Source: Periplaneta americana
Taxonomy: Eukaryota > Arthropoda > Insecta > Blattodea > Blattidae
NCBI RefSeq assembly: GCF_040183065.1
Contig: NC_091131.1
Coordinates: 15,827,800-15,891,799, forward strand
Direction: 5' to 3'
DNA length: 64,000 nucleotides
The notes under the pieces were generated by a model. The model saw nothing but the letters and a program-made list of their open reading frames with translations, did not search any database and was not told the origin of the DNA. Positions 5,129 through 60,986 of the stretch are shown in pieces. Each line of letters opens with the position of its first letter. Position 1 is the stretch's first letter. A program made the translations under genes and the position numbers.

Positions 5129-5357
5129 CTGTACTATTACCAATGGAAATACTTTTGAGGCATGGACTTGATGAAAGTCGCGTGTGCATTGGTTAAGTGG
5201 ACCGAGACGTGCGCTAGTTGGGCCGCGGGAAAGGCGGTCTCGGCCGGGGACACGGCCACGGTGGGTGGGCCGGTCTCTTGCGCGGGAAGGGAACCTCGCG
5301 CTTCTGTGGGATTGTCGCCTGCTGCACTGCCGCGGCCCTCTTTCTGCGTACCGCCCA
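5129..5357 (-). CDS. Exon 2 of a cationic proline-rich secreted peptide gene (locus B, distal mature exon)
   Basis: Coding part 5357-5214, 47 residues then TAG. The acceptor is strong (gtcgtttttgttacag) and phase 0 gives an open frame starting WAVRRKRAAAVQQAT and ending PCPRPRPPFPRPN. RRKR is a perfect furin motif (R-x-K/R-R) at residues 4-7. The roughly 40 residues after it hold about 13 prolines and many Arg/Lys, with one Trp and one Cys. The exon is much richer in G+C than its surroundings. Eighty-odd bases after the stop is a strong donor (ACAG/GTAAGA at 5129), so the transcript may continue into a 3' untranslated exon. The exon has no signal peptide; the nearest upstream minus-strand signal exon is 17422-17541, whose phase-0 donor fits. 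It resembles proline-rich antimicrobial peptides such as bactenecin or PR-39 in composition only. Longer frames through the island in other phases lack the splice fit. Confidence 0.6.
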
Positions 5358-5593
5358 CTGTAACAAAAACGACTTCTATCATTTCGAGTCTGCCACACAA
5401 CATTACAGAATAGGTATTTAAAATATCGTGCCCGTCAAGTTTTATGCAAGTTTTTGAGCATTAGTTTCTGAACCGATTTTTGTGTACGTGATGCATATTT
5501 CTCAACGTCTGAAGGTCCTTTTTGGTCTTTAAATGAATACTTCGATACGGGAACTGTCGTTTTTCAATTTTTTCTCTCTAAAATCTACATTAA

Positions 5594-6774
5594 GGTATAT
5601 GTACACCTTTACATACAGAAAATTTTGTTTTGTATAATTTTGCTCTGTAAAATTTTTATACAATTAAGAATGGTACCAGAAAGAGAATGAAGTGAACAGA
5701 TCGCTTAAAATTATGTCTAAATTGTTTATAAAAATTATTTTGTTTATAATTTTGACATACAACTTCAAACATGATAGCTCATGCAGTTTTTAAGTTAGAC
5801 CCACAGTTTTTTCACTGTTTTATAGCTAAAACTATTCTTTAGTGCCTGACATAGAGCTATTTTTTTATTTTTATTTACATTAATTAAATATTACCATATA
5901 TGTAACTTACAATAATATTTTATGTTGCATAAATCGTGTAAAAAGTCCATAGATAATTATTAATTATATTAATGTTATTTTACTCATTGTCAGGCACTGG
6001 GCGACATTTCAAGCTTCAAAATGACACCAATATCTTCTTGGTATCACCATATTTAGCTGAGATATCATATTTGAAAGAATTAAATATTCTAAAATTACTA
6101 TTTACAGGAAATGAGCCACAAACTTTCAGAGCCTAGAAGACTGCATCATCATATGTCACCCCTTAAGCAGCTTCATGTCTGTCCAGTTTCAGCTTCTTTC
6201 TGCCTCTCAAATACCTCTTCCTTGTTTTAACTTCAGGTGTTGAATGCTTTTTTTTTTTTTTTTGGCATTTTTGTCCCTATTTCCATTGATGCAACAAATC
6301 CTGCGATGGTGCTTGTCCCAGGGTTTATTCCCATCCTCCTCAGAATTTTAATTTATACTTTTGGACTCTTATTAAAATGACGTACATCACTGACACACAA
6401 ATTTACAGTTTTATGACTAACAGTAAAAGATTATAAATTACTTCATTATGTAAAAAAGTTTTTTCAATCTAATGATCATGTCCAGATATCTATGCATCTA
6501 TTTTGGGACTAGAAAGAAGTTTATTTTATAAGAAATTCTGGACGAGGGGATTGACTGCTACGAAGATCACTCCAAAAGTAATGCACTCCAAAAGTAAGTG
6601 ACTGTGGCTGATGGCGCAGCATTTTGGAAAATGGGACTTATCTGAAAAACCATAAGGCATAAATCGAAAATTTTTTATATCAAATTAAAGGGGAGAAAAT
6701 TCTCTATTAAAATAGTTACATTTTGAAAATTCTAATTTTTCATCTTTTTTGCGTTTTGTGGGTGTACATATACC
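5594..6774. mobile_element. Non-autonomous TTAA-target transposon (Kolobok/piggyBac-type)
   Basis: Inverted ends GGTATATGTACACC...GGTGTACATATACC sit exactly between two TTAA tetranucleotides (5590-5593 and 6775-6778). TTAA duplication with G-initial ends favours Kolobok over piggyBac. The interior is AT-rich and noncoding. Around 6570-6600 it holds a mariner-end-like CACTCCAAAAGTAATGCA duplicated in part. It lies in the putative intron of peptide locus B. Confidence 0.75.
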
Positions 6775-6835
6775 TTAATTGACCATAAAAGTAGAAAATA
6801 TACTATTGTTTTTAAGCTATGCGAAATGATGTTGA

Positions 6836-6837
6836 TG

Positions 6838-6878
<41 letters not shown>

Positions 6879-6955
6879 TTAAAAATAATTTATTTATTTA
6901 TACTGGCAGAGTTAAGGCCATAGGGCCTTCTCTTACACTCTGCCACGTGACAAAT
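6836..6955 (-). repeat. (AAT)n microsatellite joined to a LINE 3' tail
   Basis: An AAT trinucleotide run is followed by GGCAGAGTTAAGGCCATAG and GGCCTTCTCTTACACTCTGCC. This is the reverse complement of the LINE 3' tail also seen at 18.8, 33.3, 36.7 and 58.9 kb. Confidence 0.7.
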
Positions 6956-7319
6956 TATACAAGGAGTGAAAATTTAACAAAAAGTTAAAGAATAGTATAC
7001 TAACATATTGCAAAAAATAATAGCATAACAAAATCGATACTAAACAATATGAAAATAATACCATAATAGGAAAAAGAAAGTAAAATACAGATCTATAGAT
7101 TGGAATATAATAAAAGCAAATCAGTTTGTAGGGGTCTACAGATAGTTAACAGGGAAGCACGTAAGGAAGGATGCAACAAATAGAATGTAATAAAATATAA
7201 TTTAAAAAATGCAAAATTTAAATAGAATCAACAATAAAAAGGACACGATGATAAATTCATCTCGCGATCAAGAGAACAAAAAGAAAAAAAAGTAATAGAA
7301 GAAAATATATATTTTTACA
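6956..7319. other. No gene recognised
   Basis: A/T-rich sequence, probably the decayed 3' region of the LINE at 6.84-6.95 kb. No open frame or recognisable domain. Confidence 0.4.
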
Positions 7320-7936
7320 AAACTATCATAGAAAAAAGGGCTTATAAGGGAAAGGAATCTGAATTGACCACACACATACAACACTACCGAAAATGTCGAA
7401 AAAATTCCACAAATTGTGCATGATCATCGATGCATCACGATCAGAGAAATTGCTGACATCGTCAACATGTAATTTGGAGAGGTACAAATGATCCTCATGT
7501 CCACATCCAAATGGATGTTCTGTAAGGACAATGCGCCAACCCACAGCAACACGCCACAACACCCGTAACAAGATGGTCGTCGTTCCTTACCCCCTCCACC
7601 TGATTTGGCCGCCTGCTACTCCTTTTTGTTTCCGAAGATAAAATTCAAGCTAAAGGGTCGCCGTTTTGGCACTACGGAAGAGATTCAACACGAATAACAG
7701 AAGGTGCTTGACAGGCTTCAAGAACGTGACTTCCAGGAGGGATTCCAAAAATGACAGACGCGCTGGGATCAGTGTATAGCTGCCCAAGGGGACTACTTTG
7801 ACAGCCAAATTTAAATCGGGTAATTTTATTTCCATTTATGAGACAGGTCTCAGAATTTAATGATCACATCTGGTAATTATACCTAGTCCCCTCTACAAAT
7901 CCTAAGAGTTTGTACAGGGAATTTCGAAACACCCAG
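7320..7936 (+). pseudogene. mariner transposase relic with large internal deletion
   Basis: Plus-strand translation gives mariner pieces: IVHDHRCITIREIADIVNM (helix-turn-helix), DNAPTHSNTPQ (catalytic HDNA-PAH region), then RWDQCIAAQGDYFDS near the C-terminus. Most of the catalytic core between the HTH and DNAP is deleted, and several stops interrupt the frames. The right end (tttcgaaacaccc) is interrupted by the element starting at 7937. Confidence 0.75.
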
Positions 7937-8727
7937 CATGGATAAATATATAATAGGATGCGAAACTGCGGTCAGCACCATCTGGCGGCGGGGGGCTGAA
8001 ATAAGATGATCAGCGCCCAACGTCATAGGTGGTGAACATTAGAACTACATGTTGGGTACATTACCCAGAGTTCTGTATTTATCCGTTCGAGATATTGCTC
8101 GAGGAAACGAGATGGCAGACAGAAACTTGCTAATAAGTGAACATAAAGTGATACGTGTGTGTATAAGCAGTGTATGTTAAACAGTGATGTTTATGGACGT
8201 TGTAAAAATAGTGTTGTTGAATGTAGTGTAAAGTAATAGTAATATAATAAATTGAACTATCTAAGTAGTTCTTGCAGACTTTTCCATTGTGCTGTACAAT
8301 AAATACCCAAAGAATACAATCCCAATTATCTAACCTTTTGCTTTATTTTTTGTCTCTGTCTGGTTATATTTTAATTGGATAGTGTAAAATAGATCGTCTC
8401 TTTTATCTTCCTGTTGGCTCCGGTAAGAATTTTCAGTAGAAGATGCTGTGAGGAATAAAAATGTAAATGTTTTATTTTAAATTGGGTTAGTTTTGTATAT
8501 CGATGAGGGTGGGAGGGAACACTTTCTGCACAGTTTAATATTTTCGTCACCAGATGCTCTGCTAAATGCATGGAGTAATTACTCTTTTCGCTGCTTGGTG
8601 CGCTGCTAGATGTAATAACGCCCCTCCCCCCAACAGGTGGCAGCAAGATCAATTTCTACAACAGCGCCTATAGTATGTGTTACGGGAAACTCAATAAGTT
8701 TCGCATCCTATTATATATTCATCCATG
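7937..8727. mobile_element. 791-bp non-autonomous transposon with 7-bp target duplication
   Basis: Ends CATGGAT(A/G)AATATATAATAGG and inverse, about 30 bp, extending through GATGCGAAACT. Flanked by perfect CACCCAG (7930-7936 and 8728-8734). It is inserted in the mariner relic's right end and is itself bordered by a LINE. No coding sequence. Confidence 0.85.
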
Positions 8728-8740
8728 CACCCAGTATGTA

Positions 8741-9723
8741 CTTACTTACTTACTTATTGGCTTTTAAGGAACTCGGAGGTTCATTGCCGCCCTCACATAA
8801 GCCCGCCATTGATCCCTATCCTGAGCAAGATCAATCCAGTCTCTACCATCATATCCCACCTCCCTCAAATCCATTTTAATATTATCTTCCCATCTACGTC
8901 TCGGCCTCCCCAAAGGTCTTTTTCCCGCCAGCCTCCCAACTAACACTCTATATGCATTTCTGGATTCGCCCATACGTGCTACATGCCCTGCCCATCTCAA
9001 GCGTCTCGATTTAATGTTCCTAATTATGTCAGGTGAAGAATACAATGCGTGCAGCTCTGCGTTGTGTAACTTTCTCCATGCAAATATAACTTCATCCCTC
9101 TTAGCCCCAAACATTTTCCTAAGAACCTTATTCTCAAACATTCTTAATCTCTGTTCCTTTCTCAAAGTGAGAGTCCAAGCTTCACAAACATATAGAACAA
9201 CCGGTAATATAACTGTTTTTTAAATTCTAACTTTCAGATTTTTTGACAGCAGACTAGATGACAAAAGCTTCTCAACCGAATAATAACAGGCATTTCCCAT
9301 ATTTATTCTGCGTTTAATTGCCTCCTGAGTGTCATTTATATTTGTTACTGTTGCTCCAAGATATTTGAATTTTTGCACCTCTTCGAAAGATAAATCTCCA
9401 ATTTTTATATTTCCATTTCGTACAATATTCTCGTCACGAGACATAATTATATACTTAGTCTTTTCGGGATTTACTTCCAACCCTATCGCTTTACTTGCTT
9501 CAAGTAAAATTTCCGTGTTTTCCCTAATCATTTGTGGATTTTCTCCTAACATATTCACGTCATCCGCATAGACAAGAAACTGATGTAACCCGTTCAATTC
9601 CAAACCCTCTGTGTTATCCTGAACTTTCCTAATGGCATATCTAGAGCGAAGTTAAAAAGTAGAGGTGACAATGCATCTCCCTGCTCCAGCCCGCAGTGAA
9701 TTGGAAAAGCATCAGGTAGAAAC
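8741..9723 (-). mobile_element. 5'-truncated LINE with reverse transcriptase 3' half
   Basis: Flanked by a 14-bp duplication GCACCCAGTATGTA (8727-8740 and 9724-9737). Minus-strand translation runs from [18 protein letters not shown] (the YADD catalytic motif of RT motif C) through [12 protein letters not shown] and [14 protein letters not shown] to the C-terminal RRLRWAGHVARMGESRNAYR and MNLRVP. It ends in an AAGT repeat tail at 8741-8758. Only the 3' part of an endonuclease/RT open frame remains, broken by frameshifts. Same family as 13392, 25885, 39475 and 53012. Confidence 0.9.
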
Positions 9724-9867
9724 GCACCCAGTATGTATTAGAACTAAATTAATTTGTAGTTTTGAAAACGAAAGCCCCGAGAGAATGAACTTGAGTGATT
9801 CTGACAAGGCTGGAGCCTCTGCTACACTCCGGACAGCGTGTAGTAATGGGTATACGAGGGAACTCAC

Positions 9868-10165
9868 CAACTCGTCACGACATCACCCTGGGTCTAAACC
9901 GCGGCCGCTGCGGCAGGGGGGGCAGGGGACGCGACGGCTTCCGCCTCGGAAAGTCCGGGTAGGGCAGCGGAGGCTGGAACGGCTGCGGCTCCTCTGGCTC
10001 GGGCAGGGGCTTCCCTGGCCTCGAGGGCGGCGTCTTCTTAGGCGGTGGCCTTCGCTTGGGCTTGGGCGACAGCAGCACTCTGCGCAGTTTGGTCGCCGAG
10101 CGCTTTAGAGCTCCCCCCAGTGTCCTGAACCACCTGGCGGCGCGCGTGAAACGACGCTGCTGGCC
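9868..10165 (-). CDS. Exon 2 of a cationic proline-rich secreted peptide gene (locus B, proximal mature exon)
   Basis: Coding part 10165-9875, 96 residues then TGA. The phase-0 acceptor (gagcgtcaacttccag) opens with GQQRRFTRAARWFRTLGGAL. A minimal furin site RFTR precedes AARWFRT. Next comes a basic amphipathic segment to about residue 35 (LKRSATKLRRVLL), then a Pro-rich tail (KPKRRPPPKKTPPSRP ... PQRPRFRPRVMS) with about 25 prolines in all. It is a clear paralogue of 60750-60986: ARW[FM]RT, then RS..KLR at like spacing, then an Arg/Pro tail. Both other frames stop within the exon. The nearest signal exon is 17422-17541, phase-compatible across a 7.3-kb intron. A good donor (TTG/GTGAGT, 9868) lies just past the stop. 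GC-rich, unlike its surroundings. A role as antimicrobial or other extracellular cationic peptide is inference from composition and precursor layout. Confidence 0.7.
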
Positions 10166-10194
10166 CTGGAAGTTGACGCTCACATTGAGAATAA

Positions 10195-11993
10195 AGGAAC
10201 GGTTACACGTCGCTACTTTTGCTGCGCAACTTTTCTACTGTTCACACGTAAGCCAAAACTAGCGCACTGCACGCTACTTTTCGTGCTGCGCAACCCGAGT
10301 GCTGCAAAAGTTGCAACTGGAGGTTGCGAGTCTGTTCACACACAAGGCGCTACTTTTGCAGCCGCAGTCATGCTGCAGGTTTCCATCTCCGTGTTGACTT
10401 CTCAATATACATTTTGTGGTTATGTTCGCATTATTAAGGCCCGATTGTATAAACCATTTAATCTTAGATCAGAGGTTAAATTGATCCTTGTTTCAGCTGA
10501 ACTTGGAATTTTGTGTTGTATAAAGTCTAATCTGAGATTAATTTGCCTCAAACTAAAGTCAACTTTGACTGAAGAAATTTCTCCGATTAAGTTAGATGAT
10601 CCAAGTTCAGTTATTTCTTTTCTGTTTGAAATATACGAGTGACAGATTGTGCAAATAAAATATCCATTATTATTAATATCAATAGATATGATAAGTACAT
10701 TTATATATATTTCTTTCAATTTCTTGCCTTAATACACAAACAATCTTATATTTTATAAGGCTCTATCGTGTTCAGCAGTATCAAATAACATAACCTATAA
10801 TTATATTATTTTTATAACAACCATTAATTATTAATGGATATGATAGGTACATTCATAAATTTTCAATTTACTGTATTACTAAACGAAAATTGTCGTTTTA
10901 TAAAGCTTTATTACGTTTAGCAGTATCAAACACCATAACATGTTAACAACTCGGAGAACAGTCAACCTTCTTCTTATTGTCCGCCATTATTTACATTGCA
11001 CAAAAAACCAGTGTCTCCAACAGAGTATACGGAAAGTCGCCAAAAAGTAGTTGTAAAGTCGCTAGATTTCTCATTATCAACAAAGAAAGAATAAATTTTG
11101 TCACTATTGGGGTGCTAAAAAGGTCACTAAATCCCTATTTAAGCAATATAAAAGTTAAAAAAGAAATTGTTGTTGAAAGAGAGTTAAAGTCGCTAGATTG
11201 GCAACACTGAACAAACCTGTATAACATGGTCCGCGCATCTCGTATTTCACCTGTTTATGCGATGTTGCCAGATCCTTTTCACGTGAACTTAGATTGCATT
11301 TGAACCAAGGTAATTTGATCGCAGAAAAGTTTTATACAATAGAAGAAGTGTCTGAACTCGGTTCACTTTTCGATCTACGATCAAAGTTGATCTTTAGTCA
11401 GGGAGTTTTATACAATTGGGCCTAAGAAACTCATGCGAAAGCTTACTTATATATTATTTTCTTTTCTGTCCTAACTAGTATTCAGAAATTGACATATTTT
11501 TACTATAAAGCTTTTAAAAACGCCTATATACTTAAATGATAACCAACAGCATATTCACATAATCAATGTTGGCAACCCTCCCGTTTGAAACTACGCTACA
11601 GAAAATTAAAAAAAGTGAATTATATCGTCAGCAAATATGCTCAGACTGTGTTGTGCATTTAATAACTGTTACAAATAATTTATTTTCACCAAATCTAACA
11701 TTAAAATACATCCAAACAATAAAAGTATCATTGGCACATTTGGGTGGTAACACTGGTTGCAACCGCAGCAAAAGTTTCAACAAAACCGATATCAAAAATG
11801 CTGCGGCTGCAACCCTGAGAACCCTGTACACACGTCGCTACTTTTAAGCTGCGCGCAGCATGGAAAAGTAGCGGGCAGCAGGTTCGGCAGCCTCTACTTT
11901 TCGGGTTGCACCGTTGTTCACACGTCGCAGTACTAGAGTTGCGCAGTTTTTTGTACTACAGCGCTGCAAAAGTAGCGACGTGTGACCGTACCT
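10195..11993. mobile_element. PIF/Harbinger-like transposon with subterminal repeats
   Basis: Ends AGG(A/T)ACGGT(T/C)ACACGTCGCTAC and inverse, flanked by TAA (10192-10194 and 11994-11996), the TWA target of PIF/Harbinger. Many subterminal copies of CGTCGCTACTTTTGCTGCGC occur in both orientations. No transposase. Its left edge is only about 30 bp upstream of the splice acceptor of the exon at 9868-10165. It contains a second element at 10438-11422. Confidence 0.8.
10438..11422. mobile_element. Nested TAA-target MITE
   Basis: Ends GGCCC(G/A)ATTGTATAAA and inverse, flanked by TAA (10435-10437 and 11423-11425). The ends differ from those of the host element, but the target is the same. The interior holds a degenerate tandem duplication of roughly 165 bp (about 10660-10950; ATAT.ATA(A/G)GTACATT and AGCAGTATCAAA recur). 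Noncoding. Confidence 0.75.
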
Positions 11994-11996
11994 TAA

Positions 11997-13304: not shown

Positions 13305-13305
13305 A

Positions 13306-13348
<43 letters not shown>

Positions 13349-13380
13349 ATGAATGAATGAATAAATGAATAAATGAATAA
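13305..13380. repeat. (AAAT)n/(GAAT)n microsatellite
   Basis: Tetranucleotide array directly abutting the 3' tail of the LINE at 13392. Confidence 0.9.
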
Positions 13381-13391
13381 ATTTATATACT

Positions 13392-14297: not shown

Positions 14298-14413
14298 AAT
14301 TTATATACTGTACATATAAATTACACCGCCATTGATGGAGTATCTTAGGAGCTTTGTGATACATATTTAACGCAGCAGAAACTGATTTCTCCTTCCCTCT
14401 GGCTCCGGTATCA

Positions 14414-14415
<2 letters not shown>

Positions 14416-14453: not shown

Positions 14454-14458
<5 letters not shown>

Positions 14459-17575: not shown

Positions 17576-17584
17576 TATATATAA
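17576..17584 (-). promoter_or_regulatory. TATA box of locus B
   Basis: TTATATATA on the minus strand, 35 nt before the ATG at 17541. The same spacing holds at locus A. Transcription would start within about 10 nt of the ATG, giving a very short leader. Confidence 0.6.
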
Positions 17585-27769: not shown

Positions 27770-28384
27770 AATTTTACTCATGATCGTTGTGACCGAATGT
27801 CCCCGCCCCCAAAGAGTTATTTTAAGTTAATATAAACCTCTTTTGACAACAGTGCTTCTTTGAGTTCATTTACTAGGCCTAATTTTATTCACTTTTCACC
27901 TACATAGTCATAATATTTGTTGGCTATGATAAAATATATGGAGTAGTGTCTCTTTTAAAGTCTTCGTATATATATTAAACGTTTTGCATTTCCTTCAAAT
28001 TGAATGAAGAACATTTCTTCCCAATCACACTTAAACGTAAGCGTGGTAGATCTCCGCTCATCGCTTGGGCTTGGTTACATTTGTAGGTTACTGTTGTATT
28101 GGTTAACGCTATGGCTATATTGAAATTTATACATTTCGAATTTTCGTTAAATTTTATGTATGAATGCGTAGAAAGTTTACCCATTTTGTCTCTTAACTAT
28201 TTATTAAACTTGTGTCGTGGGCTTCAAATTTGAGAGAAATAAATATGTAAAATCATGCTGAGTAGGCCATAAAACTTTTCTTTCTTCTTAACTTCTACAA
28301 TAAACTGTCTAGCCTTTATTAAACAGATAATCTTTCAGTACTTTGATTTTTATTGTATTTGTAAATTTAATATTAATTGTAATT
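27770..28384. other. No gene recognised
   Basis: AT-rich; a 69-codon minus-strand frame at 27975-28184 has no support. Confidence 0.4.
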
Positions 28385-28443
28385 GTATTCTTAATATTGT
28401 AGTTCTAATCCCCTGGTAGATGGGAAAAGAAGGCCTACCAGAT

Positions 28444-28499
<56 letters not shown>

Positions 28500-28528
28500 G
28501 TAAATAAGTAAATAAGTAAATAAATAAG

Positions 28529-28587
<59 letters not shown>

Positions 28588-28830
28588 GTAAATAAATAAA
28601 TAAATAACTAAATAAATAAGTAAATAAGTAAATAAGTAAATAAATAAGTAAATAAATAAATAAATAAGTAAATAAATAAATAAATAAATAAGTAAATAAG
28701 TAAATAAATAAATAAATAAATAAGTAAATAAATAAATAAGTAAATAAGTAAATAAATAAATAAGTAAATAAATAAATAAATAAGTAAATAAGTAAATAAA
28801 TAAATAAGTAAATAAATAAATAAATAAAAC
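28385..28830. repeat. LINE 3' tail expanded into a TAAA/TAAG array
   Basis: GTAGTTCTAATCCCCTGGTAG..GAAGGCCTACCAGATT, a LINE tail, is followed by about 390 bp of TAAA and TAAG tetranucleotides in irregular order. Two overlapping minus-strand frames of FIYLFTYL repeats are artefacts. Confidence 0.9.
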
Positions 28831-30302
28831 TAAACAAAACACTATGGCTAACCAAACTTTATCACAGGTACTTAAAATGAAAATCATTCACTGCTCGAAA
28901 ATATCGCAGTCTATCACGAAAATAGTCCATGTCTTCCTTACAGCTACATGACTGGTCTCTTCCATCTCATATCTACAATGAACTGTTTTCGTGATATGGG
29001 ATATTGGATTCCTTAAAAGTTGTTTGTAAGCAATTAAGTATGAAATCATACTCGGTACACAAACGCATAAAACCCTTCAAATCTTAACAAAGTCAACGAA
29101 AATAATCCGTTCATTATGACAACAGTTTTTAATTCGATAGGTAGGAAGATGTGTTTACACCATCTTTAGGCTACAGGAAATACGCAGTTTCGATGAGAGG
29201 ATAATAGGTGAACATGGTGCAGCATGGGATGAGAATGCTATGGAAAAGTTGGAGTAAGATCCGTCTCCCAGCTCTTTATTTATCAGGAAAGCATGGTGCA
29301 AGAATGCGAGAAATTTGTACATGTCTGATCATGCCAAGTGTTTTGAGTCAAAAAAATTAATTTTAGAGGTCAAAGTTAATTGCAAATGATGTTTAGGGAC
29401 GTTGACTCGAAGGGAATATTTTTAGAGATAAGATGCGAAATATTCCCCAGAAATAAATAGGAATTCAATTAAGAGCTTATCCTCGCCATTCGAGGCCACA
29501 TTTTTGCCTCCCTGATGCGCCATTAGGAGCGTGCAAGTCATCGAGGCCATCTGCAGGTCGGAATCAACCGCAAATCGAGACTCTAGCGATGTGCATCGAT
29601 CTCGGTTAAAACATAGTAATTATGGGTTACGAAACCACGATTAAAAAGTAACCGTGGTTGAGGTGTATCATTCATAGTTACCGGTTACTTACATATGATT
29701 ACACATTGAACCAGGTTAAAGCCTGTGATTGTAGGCACATCCAGAGAGACCAGATTTTGAAAGTGCAAAGCCTGAACACTTCTTAGATGAGCGATATCAA
29801 ACATACATTTTACTAACTAAAGTTTATTCGGTTTTATTACAACTGAAAATTTATGCTGCTGTGATAGAAGGAATAAGAATAAATTTGCTAATGCAACAAC
29901 AGTAAATCACATATGTACACGACTTACCAGCCTTTAAAAACAATAAGTTGATAACTCTTTAATCATGCACGTTCATGTACTTCTCAGACAAAATAATAAT
30001 AAGAATCAAAATATAAATTATCAATATTTATGTTTTACACAATATATACAAATAATTTGTTTATCAAAACCTATCCCGTTCCAGTGAACGAAAATATATA
30101 TTCTCAGGTTATGAAATGCAAATCTTTTACGAACATTACATAACATTTGTTTAAACTAAGAGAATGTTGTTTCTACGTCATATGACGTTACAGGGACATA
30201 TTTATAATACATTACATCATTATTATTTAATGGCCCCATGGTACCTGCCTGCAATTCGGCCTTGCTTACGTATCCACGTGACGTAACAGCTGTAGCTAGA
30301 GC
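28831..30302. other. No gene recognised
   Basis: A scrap of LINE 3' end (GGATTCCTTAAAAGTTGTTTGTAAG) lies at about 29005-29035. The rest holds no frame or repeat I can name. Confidence 0.4.
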
Positions 30303-37022: not shown

Positions 37023-38794
37023 GGGTAAACGTTGGTAATTTCGTGGCAGTGGTTATTTCGTGATACTTTTTCTTTGCTCCTTCATGAACTAACCAATGGT
37101 GTTACGAGATTCAAATTTCCTCCAAGGGACTGCATTTGTTGTCCGGTTTCCAGAAACGTACAGCTACGCTTTGTGTGACTATTGTAGCTGCTTCAATGAG
37201 CTTTTATGTTTGGAGAGAGCAAGTTAGCGTCGATTTCTCAGGCGTACAAATGTTGTGGATGTTTGTAATTACATTACAGGCTTATTACTAAAGGTAAACA
37301 TATGATATTGGTACAATGATTTATTATATCTTAACGACATTTTAGGAAATGTTTTTGGAATTTTAGATACAGCTGTAGTCGCCATATAGGCTTAGATTTA
37401 CTGGTAGAAATCTTAGCTGTTTGAGGCGAAATTTTGTTGAGCATTAAGCGTTACTGTTTTAAGCGGAACTATTTTAAAAATTGTATTACAATACGAATTT
37501 TAGAAATCTGAAGATAAGATGTGATAACAAAAAAGAAAAGGGGGACGCAATGGGTTCAGTGTAGCTTCTGTTTGATCTGTTATCATGCTAAGTACCAATG
37601 ATAAGTGCTAGATGACTTACTTGCAAAAATTGTGAAAGAAGATGAAACATGACTCCACCATTTTGGACCAGAGACAGAGGCAGACAATGGAGTGGCAGCA
37701 TGCAAATTCACCAAAGAAATAGAAATTCAAAAGTACACCTTCGGCAGGAAAAGTTATGGCTATTGTGTTTTTCGATTCAGAAGGACTCTTGCTTGCGGAC
37801 ATCATGCCACACGGAACCACCATTAATTCTGATGCGTATGTGGCAACTCTCAAGAAACTTCAAGCTCGACTGAGTCGTGTTCGACGACATCGGGAGAAGC
37901 AGGATGTTCTGCTATTGCACGACAACGCACAGCAATGTCAGTCACAAGACTACAGACAAGATCAGAAAATTCGGATAGACAACACTGAAATATCCGCCTT
38001 ACAGTCCTGAACTGGAACCATGCGATTACCATCTCTCTGGTAAACTGAAGGATCCCTTCGCGCAACGAGGTTAGAAGATGACTCCCTTGTGCACGCTGCT
38101 AAAGAGTGGCTCAGACGTGTTGGTCCAGACTTTTACCGTGCTGGTCTACTGACCCTCGTTCCTAGGTTACGTAAAGCAGTTGAAAGGGACGGGGATTATG
38201 TGGAAAAGTGACGTTTTGTTCTTAAGGGATGTATCTACATTCTGTGAAAATAGCAAAGCTGTAGGATAAAAATATAATTTTTAAACAAATGTTATGCATT
38301 ACTTTTGGAGTTACCCTAGTAATATAGGCTATAGTAAAGTCCGTAATAAAAGTGTTCACCCTTTCAGGGCAAAGAAAATCCCTTTTCAATTTCAATTTTT
38401 ACTTTGATTTCATTCTTATTATGTGTTGATATGTATTTCTATGTTTTCTTGCTATGAATATTAGACGGAATTACTATGTTTGAAGTCTTGTAACAATAAA
38501 TGAGAATTTAATTTGACTTTAATGAATTTTTCCACAATTCTTCTACCTCTCACGAAAATATCAATGTAATATCACGAAATTACCAAGGCTATCACGAAAT
38601 AACCAACGTTTTAGCTTAAGTTGTAAAAGTGGTGTTTGGCACTTGTTCAAGAACGTGTACAATCTTTTATGTTTCCAGATTTGTACAGCAAATTATCGTC
38701 TTTTAGATGAAAAGATCGGAATAAGGATATATTTACACATTTGCATTTTAAATTAATTTTCATGAAATTATCACGAAATTACCAATGTTTACCC
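37023..38794. mobile_element. TA-target transposon hosting a mariner insertion
   Basis: Ends GGGTAAACGTTGGTAATTTC and inverse (GAAATTACCAATGTTTACCC), flanked by TA. Subterminal TATTTCGTGATA-type repeats recur near 38560-38610. Most of the middle is a mariner relic. No transposase of its own. Confidence 0.75.
37625..38320 (+). pseudogene. mariner transposase relic
   Basis: Across frames: GRKSYG-like start, MAIVFFDSEGLLLADIMPHG, TTINSDAYVATLKKLQARLS, DVLLLHDNA (catalytic D), YSPELEPCDYHL (third acidic region), LRRVGPDFYRAG and VERDGDYVEK with a stop. 5'-truncated, so the first catalytic D is lost or displaced, and shifts occur around 37755 and 37950. The 3' end matches the mariner terminus GCATTACTTTTGGAGT (about 38297-38312). 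Confidence 0.85.
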
Positions 38795-47388: not shown

Positions 47389-47390
47389 TA

Positions 47391-51642: not shown

Positions 51643-51684
<42 letters not shown>

Positions 51685-52751: not shown

Positions 52752-52998
52752 GCCATTGGCGTAGCTCAATCGGAGAAGGGGCTTGCCTTCTGATACGGAC
52801 CAGCGCTCGGCCTTGGATTTGATTCCCTCTTGAGGTGATTACCTGGTTGGTTTTTCGAAGGTTTTCTCCAACCGGCGAATGTCAGATAATCTATGGCGAA
52901 TCCTTGGCCTCATCTCGCCAAATACCATCTCGCTATCACCAATTCCATCGGTGCTAAATAGCTTAGTAGTTAATGCAGTGTCGTTAAGTGACCAATTA
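52752..52998 (+). mobile_element. tRNA-derived SINE, second subfamily
   Basis: Head CCATTGGCGTAGCTCAATCG (A box) and GGATTTGATTCCC (B box), then GGTGATTACCTGGTTGGTTTT, CCTCATCTCGCCAAATACC and a GTCGTTAAGTGACCAATTAAAA tail. Confidence 0.85.
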
Positions 52999-53011
52999 AA
53001 ATATATGTATA

Positions 53012-54562
53012 CTTACTTACTGGCTTTTAAAGAACCCGGAGGTTCATTGCCGCCCTCACATAAGCCTGCCATTGGTCCCTATCCTGAGCAAAATTAATCC
53101 ATTCTCTATCATCATATCCCACCTCCCTCAAATCCATTTTAATATTATCTTCCTATCTACGTCTCGGCCACCCTAAAGTCTTTTTCCCTCCGAACTCCCA
53201 ACTAACATTCTATATGCATTTCTGGAATCGCCCATGCGTGCTACATGCCCTGCCCATCTCAAACGTCTGGATTTAATGTTCCTAATTATGTCAGACACGA
53301 AGAATACAATGCGTGCAGTTCTGTGTTGTGTAACTTTCTCCATTCTCCTGTAACTTCATCCCTCTTAGCCTCAAATATTTTCCTAAGCACCTTATTCTCA
53401 AACACCCTTAATCTCTGTTCCTCTCTCAACGTGAGAGTCCAAGTTTCACAACCGTACAGAAAAACCGGTAATATAACTGTTTTATAAACTCTTTCAGATT
53501 TTTCGACAGCAGACTGGATGATAAAAGTTTCTCAACCGAATAATAACAGGGATTGCCCATATTTATTCTGTGTTTAATTTCCTCCCGAGTATCATTTATA
53601 TTTGTTACTGTTGCTCCCAGATATTTGAACTTCTCCACCTCTTCAAAAGATAAATTTCCAATTTTTATATTTCCATTTCGTACAATATTCTGGTCACGAG
53701 ACATAATCATATACTTAGTCTTTTCGAGATTTACTTTCAAACCTATCTCTTTACTTGCTTCCTGTAAAATTCCCGTGTTTTCCCTAATCGTTTGTGGATT
53801 TTCTCCTAACATATTCACGTCATCCGCATAGACAAGCAGCTGATGTAACCCGTTCAATTCCAAACCCTCTCTGTTATCCTGAACTTTCCTAATGGCATAC
53901 TCTAGAGCAAAGTTAAAAAGTAAAGGTGATAGTGCATCTCCTTGCTTTAGCCCGCAGTGAATTGGAAACGCATCTGACAGAAACTGACCTATACGAACTC
54001 TGCTGTACGTTTCACTGAAACACATTTTAATTAATCGAACTAGTTTCTTGGGAATACCAAATTCAATAAGAATATCATATAAAACTTCTCTCTTAACCGA
54101 GTCATATGCCTTTTTGAAATCTATGAATAACTGATGCACTGTACCCTTATACTCCCATTTTTTCTCCATTATCTGTCGAATAGTCCACACCTGTGGAGTA
54201 ACGGTCAGCGGGTCTGGCTGCGAAACCAGGTGGCCCGGGTTCGAATCCCGGTTGGGGCAAGTTACCTGGTTGAGGTTCTTTCCGGGGTATTCCCTCAACC
54301 CAATACGAGCAAATGCTGGGTAACTTTCGGTGCTGGACCCCGAACTCACTTCCGGCATTATCACCTTCATATCATTCAGACGCTAAATAACCTAGATGTT
54401 GATACAGCGTCGTAAAATAGCCCAATAAAATAAAAAAAATCTGTCGAATACAAAATATCTGGTCAATAGTTGATCTATTACGCCTAAAACCACATTGATG
54501 ATCCCCAATAATTTCATCCACACATGGAGTTAATCTTCTCAAAAGAATATTTAGTCGTTAAA
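53012..54562 (-). mobile_element. LINE, longest copy in the window, with SINE insertion
   Basis: From the 5' side: a short RT stretch around 54550-54440, a SINE, then [20 protein letters not shown] (RT motif A with F.DF.KAYDS), [40 protein letters not shown] (motif B), [19 protein letters not shown] (motif C YADD) and [12 protein letters not shown], down to the RT C-terminus in other frames and an AAGT tail at 53012. About 1.3 kb of LINE. RT motifs A to C are intact in one frame, but the endonuclease and 5' half are missing and a frameshift follows FKYLGATVT. Confidence 0.9.
54183..54438 (+). mobile_element. tRNA-derived SINE inserted in a LINE
   Basis: Starts GTCCACACCTGTGGAGTAAC, with B box GGTTCGAATCCC and CACCTTCATATCATTCAGAC, and ends CCCAATAAAATAAAAAAA. 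Flanked by perfect ATCTGTCGAATA (54171-54182 and 54439-54450). Best-preserved SINE copy here, hence probably recent. Confidence 0.95.
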
Positions 54563-54741
54563 GGTGGTATTCATAGACATTTCGCAGCACGCGCTACGAG
54601 CGTACTAAGCTAGCCCCGGCTATCCACTGGTTACTAGTACAGAATTTAAATCATATCCTATCGCTAACACTGGTTTATGAATACGAAAAACGCTGATAAT
54701 CCACCGAAAGCTCGCGCTAAAAATGTCTATGAATACGGCCC
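54563..54741. mobile_element. 179-bp MITE with TAAA target duplication
   Basis: GG(T/C)GGTATTCATAGACATTT and the inverse AAATGTCTATGAATACGGCC, flanked by TAAA (54559-54562 and 54742-54745). Noncoding. Confidence 0.8.
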
Positions 54742-54745
54742 TAAA

Positions 54746-55355
54746 TGACCAGATAAAAAATATATATATATATTTTTTTTTGCTTACTCTCAAAAGTCAT
54801 ACAGTGTTTACTCAAAGCAATGAATTTCAAGTTTACAGACAAAAGATATTTTAATATCAAAATCAATCAATCGATTGATCAATCAGTCAATCAACCATAA
54901 ATAAAATAAATATTCAAAGATATTGTTTCAGTCCATAGCGTTGTGACTTTACTTCCTTTGGTGATATCTGGTAACAGTTGGCGACATTGAAAAGATGGTC
55001 ATAATAGCTTTTTAGGAAATAATCTTACGTGAGGCTTACTTGTTTTCGGAGGGGGGCCGTAGACAAGCACAGCAGTCGTAGGCTTATTGCGCAGTCTCCT
55101 TTATTGGAATTATTTTTTTAAGATCCTTGGAACCGCTCATCATCAACGTGTTTCACTGCTTGGTGCCATTTTACCGATTCAGCCACAGCATGCAGGTCTG
55201 ACGGAGTCCGCGTGAACAGGGACGCTCCTCCGCCTCCCCGTGATGTTCCTCTACAGCAGCGGTCATCAGCACAGAGCACCCTGGGGCTAGCGTCTCTTAC
55301 CCGCGAAGAACACACTGCACTATAGTGCACTCGTAGCTGCTAGCGGGTATGCTCT
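54746..55355. other. No exon called; GC-rich part 55130-55355
   Basis: The GC-rich stretch continues from the exon at 55356 and is open for 70 codons on the minus strand (55118-55330), but I see no matching splice sites. It may be its 3' untranslated region. Confidence 0.35.
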
Positions 55356-55667
55356 CTACCTCTTCCTGCACACAGGTCGTCTCCGCTTACCCTTTACCCA
55401 TTTCAGCGAGTGCTGACGACCACTGCTCTGCAGCCTCTTAAGTTCGATGACATCGGTTCGTAATTCACCTGCATGAATCTGCTGCATTCTTAACCAAAGG
55501 GACATGCCGCCGTCGATTCCACCAAGGCGCCATCTATCCGAGGGAGCTCCACTCCCCCTGTCTACTGCAGTACGCTGGTTAAAGCCCCTACAGCTTCTCT
55601 GGAATATGTGTAGCTCCCGCAGACAGATGTCACCTTTAGGCGAATCTCTGAACCACCTCCGCAATGC
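55356..55667 (-). CDS. Possible mature exon of the cationic peptide family (locus A, proximal), maybe a pseudo-exon
   Basis: The open frame ends with TAG at 55356. Its N-terminal part reads RLSRKALRRWFRDSPKGDIC, matching RFTRAARWFRT of the exon at 9868; eleven bases (AGGTGGTTCAG) are identical there. It goes on to a long basic domain ending SLKWVKGKRRRPVCRKR. The clear acceptor (caatagttgcag at 55681) is in the wrong phase: from it, phase 0 stops after 14 codons. A weaker AG at 55668 gives phase 0 starting ALRRWF. It lacks the proline-rich tail. A SINE lies some 50 bp upstream of the acceptor, inside the putative intron. It is either a working exon with another phase or first exon, or a decayed copy. 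Its composition (many Arg/Lys) and homology support membership of the family. Confidence 0.45.
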   Translation of the reverse strand, partial: ALRRWFRDSPKGDICLRELHIFQRSCRGFNQRTAVDRGSGAPSDRWRLGGIDGGMSLWLRMQQIHAGELRTDVIELKRLQSSGRQHSLKWVKGKRRRPVCRKR

Positions 55668-55714
55668 CTTTCTGCTCAACCTGCAACTATTGAAAATGAT
55701 TAATAAAATAATGC

Positions 55715-55893
55715 TAATGAAGGCAAAATGAGTCCGAGGTCCTACGCCGAAAATTACCCAGCATTTCTTCTTCAAGTGGTTCAGGGAAAACCTCGGAAAA
55801 ACCCTAACCAAGTAACTTGTCCCAACCAGGATTTGAACCCGGGCCCGTTCGTCCACGATCAGGCAGGCTAACCGTTACTCCACAGCGGTGGAC
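55715..55893 (-). mobile_element. tRNA-derived SINE
   Basis: Minus strand GTCCACCGCTGTGGAGTAAC, GGTTCAAATCCTGGTTGGGA (B box), TACTTGGTTAGGGTTTTTCC and ATTTTGCCTTCATTAGCATT. Diverged; lies about 50 bp upstream of the possible acceptor at 55681. Confidence 0.8.
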
Positions 55894-56194
55894 TAGTTCC
55901 TCACTTGCTGGGGGAAATCAGTTTATTCATGTTTACGCGCAATTCGTCATCTAACTTTAGTTATGGAGAGTGAACCAACAATCACAACTATCAGGTACTG
56001 TGCAACATTATGTGACGATTAAAGGGGACAATGTGCAGGAAATGGCGTGGTTTTCTATCCTCAGATGTTAAACTTGTTTACGATAATACCAGACCTCACA
56101 TTGCACAGCGACACTTGAACTTTTGCTGTCATTTCATTGGAACATTATGGAACATCCTCCTTACAGCTCAGACTTAGTTCTATCCGATTTTCAC
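55894..56194. other. No gene recognised
   Basis: A scrap reading like a mariner C-terminus (HIAQRHLNFCCHFIGTLWNI, PPYSSDLVLSDFH) on the plus strand lies at about 56095-56190, so probably transposon-derived. Confidence 0.45.
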
Positions 56195-57572
56195 TAAACA
56201 GCTAAATAAATAAATGAATTAATGAACGAATGAATGAATAAATAATAAATGAATAAATAAATGAGTAAATAGATGAATGGATGGGTGAGTGGATGAATAC
56301 GTAAATAAGTAAATGAGTGAGTGAATGAGTAAATGAATAAATAAATAAGTAAATATGAAAATAAATAAATAAATAAATAAATAAATTAAATAAATAAATA
56401 AATAAATGAGTAAATATATGAATGAGTGGATGAGTGAAGGAATAAGTAAATAATTAAATGAGTGAGTGAATGAGTAAATGAATGAATAAATAAATAAATA
56501 AATAAATACATACATAAATGAGTAAATATATGAATGAGTGGATGAGTGAAGGAATAAGTAAATAATTAAATGAGTGAGTGAATGAGTAAATGAATAAATA
56601 AATAAATGAGTGAATAAATAAACAAATAAATACATAAATAAATAAGTAAATAAATAAATATATACATAAATGAGTAAATGAGTAAATGTATGAATGGGTG
56701 GGTGAGTGAAGGAATAATTAAATAAGTAAATGAATGAGTGAATGAGTAAATGAATAAATAAATAAATAAATACATAAATGAGTAAATATATGAATGGGTG
56801 GGTGAGTGAAGGAATAAGTAAATAATTAAATAAGTGAATGAGTAAATAATTAAATAAATAAGTAAATAAATAAATAAATAGATGAGTAAATGAGTAAATA
56901 TATGAATGAGTGGGTGAGTGAAGGAATAAGTCAATAATTAAATGAGTGAGTGAATGAGTAAATGAATAAATAAATAAATAAGTACATAAATGAGTAAATG
57001 AGTAAATATATGAATGAGTGGGTGAGTGAAGGAATAAGTAAATAATTAAATGAGTGAGTGAATGAGTAAATGAATAAATAAATAAATAAATAAATCAGTA
57101 AATATATGAATGGGTGGGTGAGTGACGGAATAAGTAAATAATTAAATGAGTGAGTGAATGAATAAATGAATGAATAAATAAGTAAATAAATAAATAAATA
57201 CATAAATGAATAAATGAGTAAATATATGAATGAGTGGGTGAGTGAAGGAATAAGTAAATAATTAAATGAGTGAGTGAATGAATAAATGAATGAATACATA
57301 AGTAAATAAATAAATAAATAAATACATAAATGAATAAATGAGTAAATATATGAATGAGTGGGTGAGTGAAGGAATAAGTAAATAATTAAATGAGTGAGTG
57401 AATGAGTAAATGAATGAATAAATAAATAAATACATAAATAAATAAATACATAAATGAGTAAATATATGAATGGGTGGGTGAGTGACGGAATAAGTAAATA
57501 ATTAAATGAGTGAGTGAATGAGTAAATGAATGAATAAATAAGTAAATAAATAAATAAATAAATAAATAGACG
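56195..57572. repeat. Higher-order tetranucleotide minisatellite, 1.4 kb
   Basis: AATA, AATG, AGTA and AGTG tetramers arranged in a longer unit that recurs about ten times with spacing of roughly 97-124 bp (anchor TAATTAAATGAGTGAGTG at 56451, 56563, 56937, 57041, 57138, 57258, 57382, 57500; partial near 56720 and 56822). Minus-strand YLFIYSFTHS frames are artefacts. Confidence 0.95.
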
Positions 57573-58324
57573 TGGCAGACACGACTGTTAATAATTAAAT
57601 CGTCTAAATGAATTGCGTTAAGCTGCTTGTTCACGATCAAATTTTTTTTAAAATTTATAATTCACAAGATAACATGTCTACATACTGACCAATATTGGAA
57701 AAAGATCTGTCAAATACTGTTTAATATTGCTAAAGATTTGGGAAGATTTTAAAACATGTGCTGCAAGTTTATAGTAACCTATATAGACCTAGCTACCAAA
57801 TATTACGATATAAATATATAAATCCTTTGGAAAATAACTAGGCGATACAAAAAACATTTAATAAAGAATATTGCTTTCAAATTAAATGTTTATGATTAGT
57901 ATTCGCCTAGATTGTAGGTTATAATCTTCGACATTCTATAACACAATATATTGTTAAGTTAATTACTCGAGAAGATCTGCTTTGGAATTTCCTCATACGC
58001 ACTGTTCCTCATCGTTTTATTGTGGTATTGCGTACTGGCATGGGTATAATTTATATAATTGAATTAACTCGGAAGTATTTCTTTCTCGGCCAGGACAACA
58101 TGTTTGTTCTTAAAGTCATATTTTCGAATCCAACTTGACAATTCTTTCAAAGCGTTGTCCAGTATTTGGGCATAACTACTCGTTTAAAGCACATAATTAA
58201 TATTGGTCCTCGGTTGCATAATTTTGTAACTACATTCATAACTTTTAATATGCAACCCATTGAAATATAATAAGACAACTAAAAAGTGTTCATGTCTACA
58301 AATTTGTTGAAGTAAGTTTATATT
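57573..58324. other. No gene recognised
   Basis: AT-rich; nothing identified. Confidence 0.4.
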
Positions 58325-59046
58325 TGTATAAGTAAATTAGCCTACATTACAACGTGTTCATAATTCTTGTCTTCTCTTCGTCTGCGATGTCCGTCGCGCT
58401 GACCACATTACCCCATCCTTCCAAACTCTAAACTGGCTACGGCTTAACGAACGTAGAAATTTTCATTCTCTTGTTCTCCTTTTCCAAGTCCTTCACACTT
58501 CTACACCTACCTACCTTGCCTCCCGTTTCAGTTACCTGTGATCATATCATAATCTCTTCACACGCACGCAAAATAGCCGCATACTAGCCATACCAACACA
58601 TAAGACATCATCGTATTCATCATCATACACAATCTCGCTCTCGCGCTTGTGGAATACCCTACCCAGTGACATCAGAGACTGTAGGAATTTAGTAGCGTTC
58701 AAAAGCAAACTTATTAAGCATTTTCTTACTGCGTAGAGTATGTTTAAATTTTACTTAATCAATAAAAGAAATGATTCTCTCTTCTTAGCTTTTACAATGA
58801 ACTGTCTAGCTTTTATTAATCAGTTAATCTTTTAGTACTTTGATTTTTAGTGTATCTGTAAATTTAATATTAATTGTAATTATAATTGTAATTGTATTCT
58901 TAATATTGTAGTTGTAATCCCCTGTTAGAGGGGAAGAGAAGGCCTGATGGCCTTACCTCTACCAGGTTAAATAAATAAATAAATAAACAAATAAATAAAT
59001 AAATAAATACATAAATAAATAAATAAATAAATAAGTAAATAAATAT
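58325..59046 (+). mobile_element. LINE (CR1/Jockey-like) 3' end with tail array
   Basis: Translation across frames: VHNSCLLFVCDVRRADHITP, SFQTLNWLRLNERRNFHSLV, LLFQVLHTSTPTYLASRFSY, SLSRLWNTLPSDIRDCRN and FKSKLIKHFLTA, then the tail AGAGAAGGCCTGATGGCCTT ACCTCTACCAGG and an AAAT array (58967-59046). One stop after SRFSYL. Confidence 0.85.
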
Positions 59047-59394
59047 ATTATAGTAATTGTATAATCTAATTTCGGAATCTAGTTACGAGTACAAACGCAT
59101 AGTTTCTACTTCATAAATAATTGTTTCAGCTGATTAGCGTATAAAATTACATAAATCCTCCTATACCATAATATTAGGTATAGTTTGTAGTTGATTTCTG
59201 AATTCATATTGTAATTAATAACATTTTTTAACTGCTAGCGAAACATAATCACTGCTCATTCGGTCCTAGAATTTATTAAACATTATTATATCCTCTGGTT
59301 TTTCTACTATATGTATTATTTTATTCTATTTGTATTATATTTAAATAATTAACAATTATAAAACACTATAACCTTATTTTCAAGACAGTGAAAG
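59047..59394. other. No gene recognised
   Basis: AT-rich, nothing identified. Confidence 0.4.
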
Positions 59395-59770
59395 ACTCTT
59401 GTAAGATGCAAAATTGCTACCGCATTAAGAAATAAGGGCTGGATAGTAGAATGGGTCAACGATACGAGTAGATATTTTAGCGTATAATGCTGACACTAAA
59501 CAGGGCATCATTGTGGATCCCACGATACGTTTTGAAGTAGAATGTCATCAGTCAGCCGAGGTCCACCTTGAGAAGAAGTCGATCTATGAGCCTACAGTCA
59601 ACTATTTCAAGCTGAAATATGCCTTAATTCGGCTTGCTCGTAGGTGCTCGAGGGACTATACAAGCTTTTTTAGAAGAATTTCGACGGCAGTTTGCTTTGC
59701 CAACATCTCTGAGGGATGAAATTGTAATAATTGTGTTAAAAAAATCCTGTCAAATCCTAATTAATCATTT
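59395..59770 (+). mobile_element. LINE 3' end with restriction-like endonuclease, decayed
   Basis: IATALRNKGWIVEWVNDT, then GIIVDPTIRFEVECHQSAEV, HLEKKSIYEPTVNYFKLKYA and, in another frame, a region reading REEIVIIVLKKSCQILINHF-like. Same family as 24640-25130. Several frame breaks. Confidence 0.7.
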
Positions 59771-59912
59771 CGTGTCACATTAATAGCAATTGTAATTTTT
59801 GACGCCCTTTTCTTTGTTTCCCTTCTTTAAAATCTATGTTTACATACGTATAATATTTTTTTTGAGGATGTACTGAGTCCGTAAGGGATACCCTCAATGG
59901 GGGGCAGTTTAC

Positions 59913-59916
<4 letters not shown>

Positions 59917-59961
<45 letters not shown>
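59917..59961. repeat. (TTA)n microsatellite
   Basis: Trinucleotide run. The minus-strand poly-N frame is an artefact. Confidence 0.95.
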
Positions 59962-59963
<2 letters not shown>

Positions 59964-60354
59964 GTGATTTCACAATGAAAGTTGTAAAGAATTGGTAGGT
60001 CTTGAAAAGTCTTGTGTTGAAATGTTGAATTTGACGATAATTTGATCGTGTACAAGCGCCTTTATTTAACCAAACAACAACCACTTACCAATGGCCATAT
60101 AATCATGCCAATAAAACTTTTAACTAAACAATATGCAATTTGAAATATTAGATTGTATGGTAGTTTCTTTTTGTCGCATTTCTTTTATTGAGACACATTT
60201 TCACCTCACAGCTGAAACTGATATGTATATCACACTGTACTGTAAACTATTATGCATATGTCACAAGCGAAATAAAGTTGTAGACATTCCCTGAAGGGGT
60301 TATCGCTGCACCGGTGATAGCGGATGGTAGAAATCTGTGAAAACCGATGTTTAC

Positions 60355-60480
60355 CACTGACTTGAGGACGTCTTCTCCGACGTCCAGCGACGCCGGGCTG
60401 ATGGCATCTTCCCTGAGGGAAGAAGCACCAGTGGCAGCCAGGACTGCGAGGAACACGGCGACAACGTAGAGCGCCTTCAT
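60355..60480 (-). CDS. Exon 1, signal peptide exon of a secreted peptide gene (locus A)
   Basis: Forty-two codons starting MKALYVVAVFLAVLAATGAS, a strong signal peptide (cleavage likely after TGA or GAS), then the acidic segment SLREDAISPASLDVGEDVLK SV. The phase-0 donor GTG/GTAAAC follows immediately. The structure is the same as in exon 17422-17541: both end with an acidic -ED-x-L-x-SV and a donor after GTG. The first ATG is used, about 32 nt from a TATA box. If unspliced, the frame runs 76 codons to a stop and gives a complete small secreted protein (SVVNIGFHRFLPSAITGAAI in the read-through); that alternative cannot be excluded. Downstream phase-0 mature exon: 49649-50020; nearer but doubtful: 55356-55667. 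It starts only 270 bp downstream of the stop of a neighbouring family member. Confidence 0.75.
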
Positions 60481-60511
60481 GCCGACTGCCTGCTCTGCGG
60501 CCGCTCAATTC

Positions 60512-60520
60512 TATATAATA
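60512..60520 (-). promoter_or_regulatory. TATA box of locus A with GATA site upstream
   Basis: TATTATATA on the minus strand, about 32 nt before the ATG, as at locus B. Upstream on the minus strand lie CTTATCA (TGATAAG on plus, a perfect GATA-factor site, 60552-60558) and GGGTCACTCCC right beside it, a loose half-resemblance to an NF-kB site. Confidence 0.6.
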
Positions 60521-60612
60521 CGAACAGCGGGAGAGGGTATCGGGAGTGACCCTGATAAGTGTTGGCTAGGAAGAATTCAGTTCAGCTGCAAATATTTGTG
60601 ATATATATTGTG

Positions 60613-60618
60613 TTTATT
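60613..60618 (-). terminator. Polyadenylation signal of the upstream peptide gene
   Basis: AATAAA on the minus strand about 130 nt after the TGA at 60750. It lies only about 95 bp upstream of the TATA box of locus A. Confidence 0.55.
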
Positions 60619-60749
60619 TGTGATAGCGACTAGTACATGAAACACTACAAATATTTTACCCTTGTAAATAACTTGATTGGACAATTAATTTGCAATTTAT
60701 CGTGTTTACGAAATGCTGTAACTGGCATTCCGGAAATTATTTCGTCGCG

Positions 60750-60986
60750 TCACTGCTTCCCATTTTTTTGTGGAGGTGGTTGTGGAGGTACTTTGGGCTT
60801 TTTTGGTATCAATGGTTTGGGCCGAAGAGGTCTCCGTGGCGGGGCAGGTCTTCGGCGATTTGGCCCTGGGCGCCGGGGTAGGACCCGCAGTTTAGGGAGG
60901 CTCCGAGTGAATTGTCGATACACGGTCCTCATCCACCGAGCCCCCAGCAGCGAGCGCCGCACACGGTGTAATTCGGTGTCATTCTT
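60750..60986 (-). CDS. Last coding exon of a cationic proline-rich secreted peptide gene; first exon outside the window or unseen
   Basis: 78 residues then TGA. Phase-0 acceptor (gtctatttttgtccag). Starts KNDTELHRVRRSLLGARWMR; RVRR is a perfect furin motif followed by SLLGARWMRT. A basic amphipathic stretch (VYRQFTRSLPKLRVL) leads into an Arg/Pro tail (PRRPGPNRRRPAPPRRP ... PQPPPQKNGKQ) with about 17 prolines. Paralogue of 9868-10165: ARW[FM]RT, RS..KLR and the Pro/Arg tail align in order. I found no signal exon between 60987 and 64000, so it probably lies beyond the window. GC-rich within AT-rich DNA. It is expected to be secreted and processed. A role as antimicrobial or other cationic effector is inference. 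Confidence 0.7.
   Translation of the reverse strand, partial: KNDTELHRVRRSLLGARWMRTVYRQFTRSLPKLRVLPRRPGPNRRRPAPPRRPLRPKPLIPKKPKVPPQPPPQKNGKQ

Follow-up and report, generated by a model that had tools for sequence, protein, structure and literature searches.

Do the GC-rich exons on the minus strand of a 64-kb stretch of the American cockroach (Periplaneta americana) assembly belong to real genes, how are they joined, and what might their products do? An earlier note on this stretch (the window, C15:15827800-15891799) had read them as a cluster of genes for secreted cationic, proline-rich peptides. We widened the analysed span to 321 kb (C15:15768400-16089800) and also inspected the 20 kb beneath it. 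With a probability of about 0.7, judging from the sequence, we read the locus as six or more paralogous genes in tandem that encode secreted cationic peptides of host defence. Six predicted two-exon genes (E0, E1, E2, E3, E5 and E6) lie head to tail, all on the minus strand, in about 181 kb of one scaffold. The window contains E2 and E3 complete and the second exon of E1; E0, E5 and E6 fall outside it. The proposed minus-strand array of signal and mature exons is real, but the coordinates given for it span only part of a larger array. Its features are as follows.

E0 exon 1: C15:15951962-15951843, minus strand, found in the strict signal-exon scan.
E0 exon 2: C15:15935124-15933715, minus strand, 469 amino acids, outside the window.
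E1 exon 1, candidate: C15:15912142-15912014, minus strand, found in the relaxed scan, outside the window.
E1 exon 2: window 60986-60750 (C15:15888785-15888549), minus strand, 78 amino acids with an acidic start, RVRR site, amphipathic helix, Pro/Arg tail and stop.
E2 TATA box: window 60510..60517, minus strand, TATATAGA, 37 bases before the ATG.
E2 exon 1: window 60480-60355 (C15:15888279-15888154), minus strand, 42 amino acids with signal peptide and acidic pro-segment, phase-0 donor GTAAAC.
E2 exon 2: window 50020-49649 (C15:15877819-15877448), minus strand, 123 amino acids with an RHPR site and an E6-related helix block, without a Pro-rich tail.
E3 TATA box: window 17576..17583, minus strand, TATATATA, 42 bases before the ATG.
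E3 exon 1: window 17541-17422 (C15:15845340-15845221), minus strand, 40 amino acids with signal peptide and acidic pro-segment, phase-0 donor GTAATG.
E3 exon 2: window 10165-9875 (C15:15837964-15837674), minus strand, 96 amino acids with an RR site, amphipathic helix and long Pro/Arg tail.
E4, orphan phase-0 exon, doubtful: window 5357-5214, minus strand, 47 amino acids, RRKR site, Pro/Arg-rich, no helix.
E5 exon 1: C15:15819730-15819605, minus strand, strict scan, outside the window.
E5 exon 2: C15:15809913-15809590, minus strand, 107 amino acids, outside the window.
E6 exon 1: C15:15786078-15785950, minus strand, strict scan, outside the window.
E6 exon 2: C15:15771692-15771366, minus strand, 108 amino acids, outside the window.

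Signal exons alternate with helix-bearing second exons along the minus strand over the 181 kb, and a candidate signal exon lies upstream of every one of these six second exons, before the next second exon. The gene models are predictions in which exons were paired by order and phase; their introns would measure 7.3 to 23.2 kb. All six exon-1 candidates encode a hydrophobic N-terminal stretch, as judged by a hydropathy rule rather than a dedicated signal-peptide predictor, carry a net charge of -2 to -7 beyond residue 18, and close in phase 0 ahead of a GTA donor. In five of the six genes, a TATA-type box precedes the ATG by 37-44 bases. Both signal exons of the window are confirmed in the sequence, with their TATA boxes (37 or 42 bases ahead of the ATG) and phase-0 GTA donors. 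The E2, E3, E5 and E6 signal exons are strict-scan matches that support one another, and a DNA profile of four signal exons returned these four and no others from the 321 kb; the match after them had an expectation value (E) of 6.9. The E1 signal exon (donor GTACGT) was caught only by the relaxed scan and was picked from nine candidates. It carries the TATA variant TATTAAAA and resembles the E3 signal exon (z of 3.9, where z compares an alignment score with those of composition-preserving shuffles). Only 269 bases (window 60480-60750) separate the E1 stop codon from the E2 ATG, so the E2 promoter lies within the 3' end region of E1.

What do the second exons encode? Those in the window (E1, E2, E3 and E4) are GC-rich and cationic, and each follows a CAG acceptor with an open phase-0 frame. 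In the six genes, exon 2 opens with 5 to 14 residues leading up to a basic site: RARR in E0, RVRR in E1, RHPR in E2, RMKR in E5 and RDKR in E6, five sites of the R-X-X-R type, and a plain RR in E3. The helix block follows; its best 18 residues show a hydrophobic moment of 0.56-0.75 and a net charge of +5 or +6. A Pro-rich tail is present in every gene except E2. Proline accounts for 25-31% of the mature part in E1, E3, E5 and E6, 19% in E0 and 6% in E2. Past the processing site, all six mature parts are free of cysteine and carry a net charge of +14 to +67; E4 contains one cysteine. The tails of E0, E1, E3, E5 and E6 are basic right to the end; in E2, a stretch close to the C-terminus is acidic but the end itself is basic. 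AlphaFold2 predicted for E3 a helix at 4-32 with no structure beyond (alignment of the four window exons; mean predicted local distance difference test score, 73.6), and for E2 helices at 3-11, 16-29, 32-47, 86-93 and 95-102 (single sequence; 65.5). In E0, the helix block is followed by 30-base (10-residue) Lys/Pro-rich repeats and then by a Pro/Arg/Lys-rich end, giving 455 residues after the processing site; at 469 residues, the exon is unusually long for an antimicrobial precursor. The two-part precursor proposed before stands in part, as secreted, amphipathic plus Pro/Arg-rich products of paralogous phase-0 two-exon genes with acidic pro-segments; it does not hold for E2, which has no Pro-rich tail, or for E4, which has no helix.

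Are the members related beyond their composition? Whole second exons, E0 being entered here and in the blastn comparison as a 50-residue short form from an internal acceptor, gave z values of 12.3 (E3-E6), 10.4 (E3-E5), 9.9 (E5-E6), 6.8 (E1-E5) and 5.3 (E1-E3). Weaker pairs were E2-E6 (3.7), E1-E6 (3.0) and E2 with E1, E3 or E5 (0.9 to 1.3). Helix parts compared separately gave 9.9 (E1-E5), 7.9 (E5-E6), 6.7 (E1-E3), 6.2 (E2-E6) and 5.6 (E3-E5), followed by 4.2 (E1-E6), 3.3 (E2-E5), 2.8 (E3-E6), 2.3 (E2-E3) and -0.6 (E1-E2). The E1-E3 helix score, which none of 1000 shuffles reached, bears out the paralogy seen earlier in the shared motif ARW[FM]RT...RS..KLR. We assign the E2 exon to the family because of its helix match to E6, despite the lack of a Pro-rich tail. 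The E0 helix reached z of 5.1 to E2 and 3.4 to E6 and showed no similarity to E1, E3 or E5; E0 is tentatively included, mainly through its design and this weak helix match. When each member in turn was left out of a helix profile, it came first among non-training open reading frames (ORFs; 10,257 in all) for E2, E3, E5 and E6 (E of 0.041, 0.0065, 0.0049 and 0.0031, respectively).

The proteins are alike, and the DNA around the exons is almost without similarity. Around the second exons, blastn returned three matches: a stretch of 78 bases shared by the E3 and E6 exons, one of 40 bases lying upstream of both E1 and E5, and a 982-base repeat flanking E0 and E4. In a six-frame comparison, frame +0 scored best in all five pairs. 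Third codon positions differed most in five of six pairs, E2-E6 being the exception, on protein-guided alignments, which favour such an outcome; on frame-blind DNA alignments four pairs showed a slight third-position excess and E1-E5 showed none. We rely on the six-frame comparison instead.

How far does the array extend? Applied to 138 kb above E0 and to 23 kb below E6, the helix profile detected no further members. An assembly-wide query (3,231,669,367 bases in 91 contigs) with the E2 signal peptide matched only itself; it missed its own array paralogues and hence carries little weight. A query of 472 bases including E4 likewise matched only itself across the assembly.

We infer an antimicrobial function as the best reading of this architecture, because a signal peptide, an acidic pro-part, a basic site, a cationic amphipathic helix and a Pro/Arg tail occur together in a diverging tandem array. 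How might such a product work? Exon 1 would be spliced to exon 2 as paired, in phase 0 and over a long intron. The acidic pro-segment would keep the precursor harmless until a furin-type protease cleaved at the basic site within the secretory pathway. The released helix could then bind bacterial membranes and disturb them. The extended Pro/Arg tail would add charge and might reach intracellular targets, for example the ribosome; classical proline-rich antimicrobial peptides act on intracellular targets of this kind.

Insect antimicrobial peptides are usually grouped as helical, proline-rich, glycine-rich or cysteine-stabilised, and the array appears to unite two of these kinds, helical and proline-rich, in one precursor. 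Apidaecin, abaecin, drosocin, pyrrhocoricin and lebocin are secreted, cationic, Pro/Arg-rich and processed from precursors. The array has in common with such classical peptides a secretion signal, cationic charge, Pro/Arg richness and predicted processing, and E1, E3, E5 and E6 show their Pro/Arg-rich composition; the array adds a long amphipathic helix before the tail and has no Pfam match. Spinigerin, from a fungus-growing termite (Blattodea), is a linear, cysteine-free cationic helix of about 25 residues, and we know of no Pro-rich tail in it. By description, spinigerin resembles the array in being a linear cysteine-free cationic helix from Blattodea. With a limit of E = 1, Pfam matched none of the seven exons queried, and the Attacin_C domain (PF03769) was likewise without a match. 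Five precursors run against NCBIfam, a prokaryote library, scored nowhere near its cut-offs, and a search of solved structures with the E5 mature part, the sole member searched, returned one irrelevant match (E of 0.16). Our literature searches, which had subscription journals outside their scope, found no named insect family with a helix-plus-proline-rich layout among the matches listed.

Among families described in the literature, the myticalins of mussels, as set out in the available part of their report, are likewise fast-diverging, linear, cysteine-free, cationic and composition-biased, with predicted amphipathicity (PMC12294457). They come from a different phylum, and their acidic extension is C-terminal, with the mature peptide right after the signal, whereas the acidic part of the array is N-terminal and in another exon (PMC12294457). 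No myticalin-type anionic C-terminal extension after a dibasic site was seen in the array, in which five tails are basic and E2 ends basic. A German cockroach survey sorts 39 genes into five types (defensins, termicins, drosomycins, attacin-like and blattellicins), none of which is described with the design of the array in its accessible text (PMC7712779). According to the same text, the attacins and blattellicins of Blattella are, like the array, tandem-expanded cockroach antimicrobial families, the blattellicins with a low-complexity insertion; they are defined by the Attacin_C domain, which the array exons lack (PMC7712779).

We regard the array as a probable family of antimicrobial peptides whose two-part layout is uncommon. 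At roughly even odds, it would be an unnamed, lineage-specific cockroach family in which one membrane-active helix module was kept and the tail was lost, varied or expanded by repeats. Within 181 kb, helix and tail are both kept in some members; in others the tail is missing or enlarged by repeats. If the reading is true, they would form a natural series for asking how helix and proline-rich tail share bacterial killing, and would enlarge the immune repertoire of an insect credited with 11 antimicrobial peptides in the accessible part of its 2018 genome paper (PMC5861062).

Perhaps one of those 11 is already a member? As far as its available text goes, that paper (Li et al. 2018) includes among them a 'Pro-rich peptide', Paprp-1, that is highly induced by Escherichia coli (PMC5861062). 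Paprp-1 comes from the same species, is Pro-rich and antimicrobial, and is likened to the array by description only (PMC5861062). It is possible, though we lean against it, that the array is the genomic source of Paprp-1, in which case at least one member would be an antimicrobial peptide already known to be induced by E. coli, and the others would be unreported paralogues. Such an identity is compatible with the host-defence reading and would strengthen the case for antimicrobial function. Nothing ties Paprp-1 to the array locus, however, and no second cockroach paper on the Paprp-1 name was among the matches listed.

Several observations weigh against a host-defence array. The permutations of the hydrophobic moment, in which 1 to 38 of 2000 reached the observed value, cover only the best stretch and are biased toward significance. 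The leave-one-out helix profile ranked E1 second (E of 1.4) and missed E0 among the 10,257 ORFs, and some antisense frames scored too, up to z of 8.6. The E0 signal exon, though a strict-scan match, lacks a TATA box and shows no resemblance to the others (z at most 2.0); the DNA profile of four signal exons missed those of E0 and E1. No AATAAA or ATTAAA occurs in the 600 bases downstream of E2 and E6. NF-kB-type sites were not enriched upstream for ten motifs and three upstream lengths. GGGRNNYYCC occurred within 500 bases in one of six genes, at a site inside the E1 coding exon; GGGNNNNNCCC occurred twice before E2 (5 of 300 random sets had as many), one copy again inside the E1 coding exon. 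WGATAR preceded all six genes, with 12 copies within 500 bases versus 7.8 in random sets, which is too weak for use (34 of 300 sets had as many). NF-kB control as support for immune induction was rejected as unsupported, and the promoter motifs were unhelpful.

Could the genes instead encode basic proline-rich proteins that are secreted as structural or glandular products (of saliva, cuticle, egg cases or adhesives)? The lack of NF-kB enrichment speaks for such products, and so does the long repeat-bearing E0 exon, which is unlike a classical small antimicrobial peptide; E0 is the gene for which this explanation is most plausible. For the array we consider it unlikely, given a conserved cationic amphipathic helix right after the processing site, acidic pro-segments and cysteine-free mature parts in all six genes.

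We are more doubtful still that alternative splicing operates here, with signal exons shared by several second exons and the E3 signal exon perhaps also joined to E4. E4 invites the idea: it follows a good acceptor with an open phase-0 frame, lies downstream of E3 (between E3 and E5) and has no signal exon of its own in the strict or relaxed scans. Yet the six helix exons each already have a candidate signal exon in order, and E4 has little similarity to the members (z of 4.2 to E2, at most 1.6 to other second exons and at most 1.2 to tails). E4 may be a relic or a chance frame.

We also scanned both strands of the 321 kb for GC-rich phase-0 exons with a cationic product rich in Pro, Lys and Arg. 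The scan gave 11 rows on the minus strand versus 2 on the plus strand: five were pieces of E0, E1, E4, E5 and E6, two were wrong-frame pieces of E3, and four were background rows at three places. It missed E2 and the true E3 exon. After a post hoc cut (charge at least +10, proline at least 20%), five minus-strand rows stayed and no plus-strand row did. For signal exons that end acidic and run into a phase-0 GT[AG]A donor, the count was five distinct ATGs on the minus strand and one on the plus strand. That the exons are chance open frames is very improbable: GC-rich DNA does open several frames, the 55.7-kb candidate and perhaps E4 being such cases, but strand asymmetry, alternation with signal exons, protein paralogy above composition in the coding frame and little flanking DNA similarity all argue otherwise.

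Of the seven exons first proposed, the two signal exons (60480-60355 and 17541-17422) and four GC-rich cationic exons are read in the sequence; the fifth mature exon, near 55.7 kb, is false. Its phase-0 frame stops 14 residues after the acceptor, and its similarity to the members is z at most 1.9. The apparent imbalance of two signal to five mature exons disappears, since it arose from the window edges, this false exon and one orphan (5.2-5.4 kb).

Elsewhere in the window, long AT-rich simple repeats (28350-28887 and 56194-57661) hold minus-strand open frames of the FIYLFIYL type, which we read as non-genes. Two of six other window ORFs scanned matched mobile-element remains: a reverse transcriptase frame (PF00078) at 53426-54382 and a transposase fragment (PF01359) at 37723-38010.

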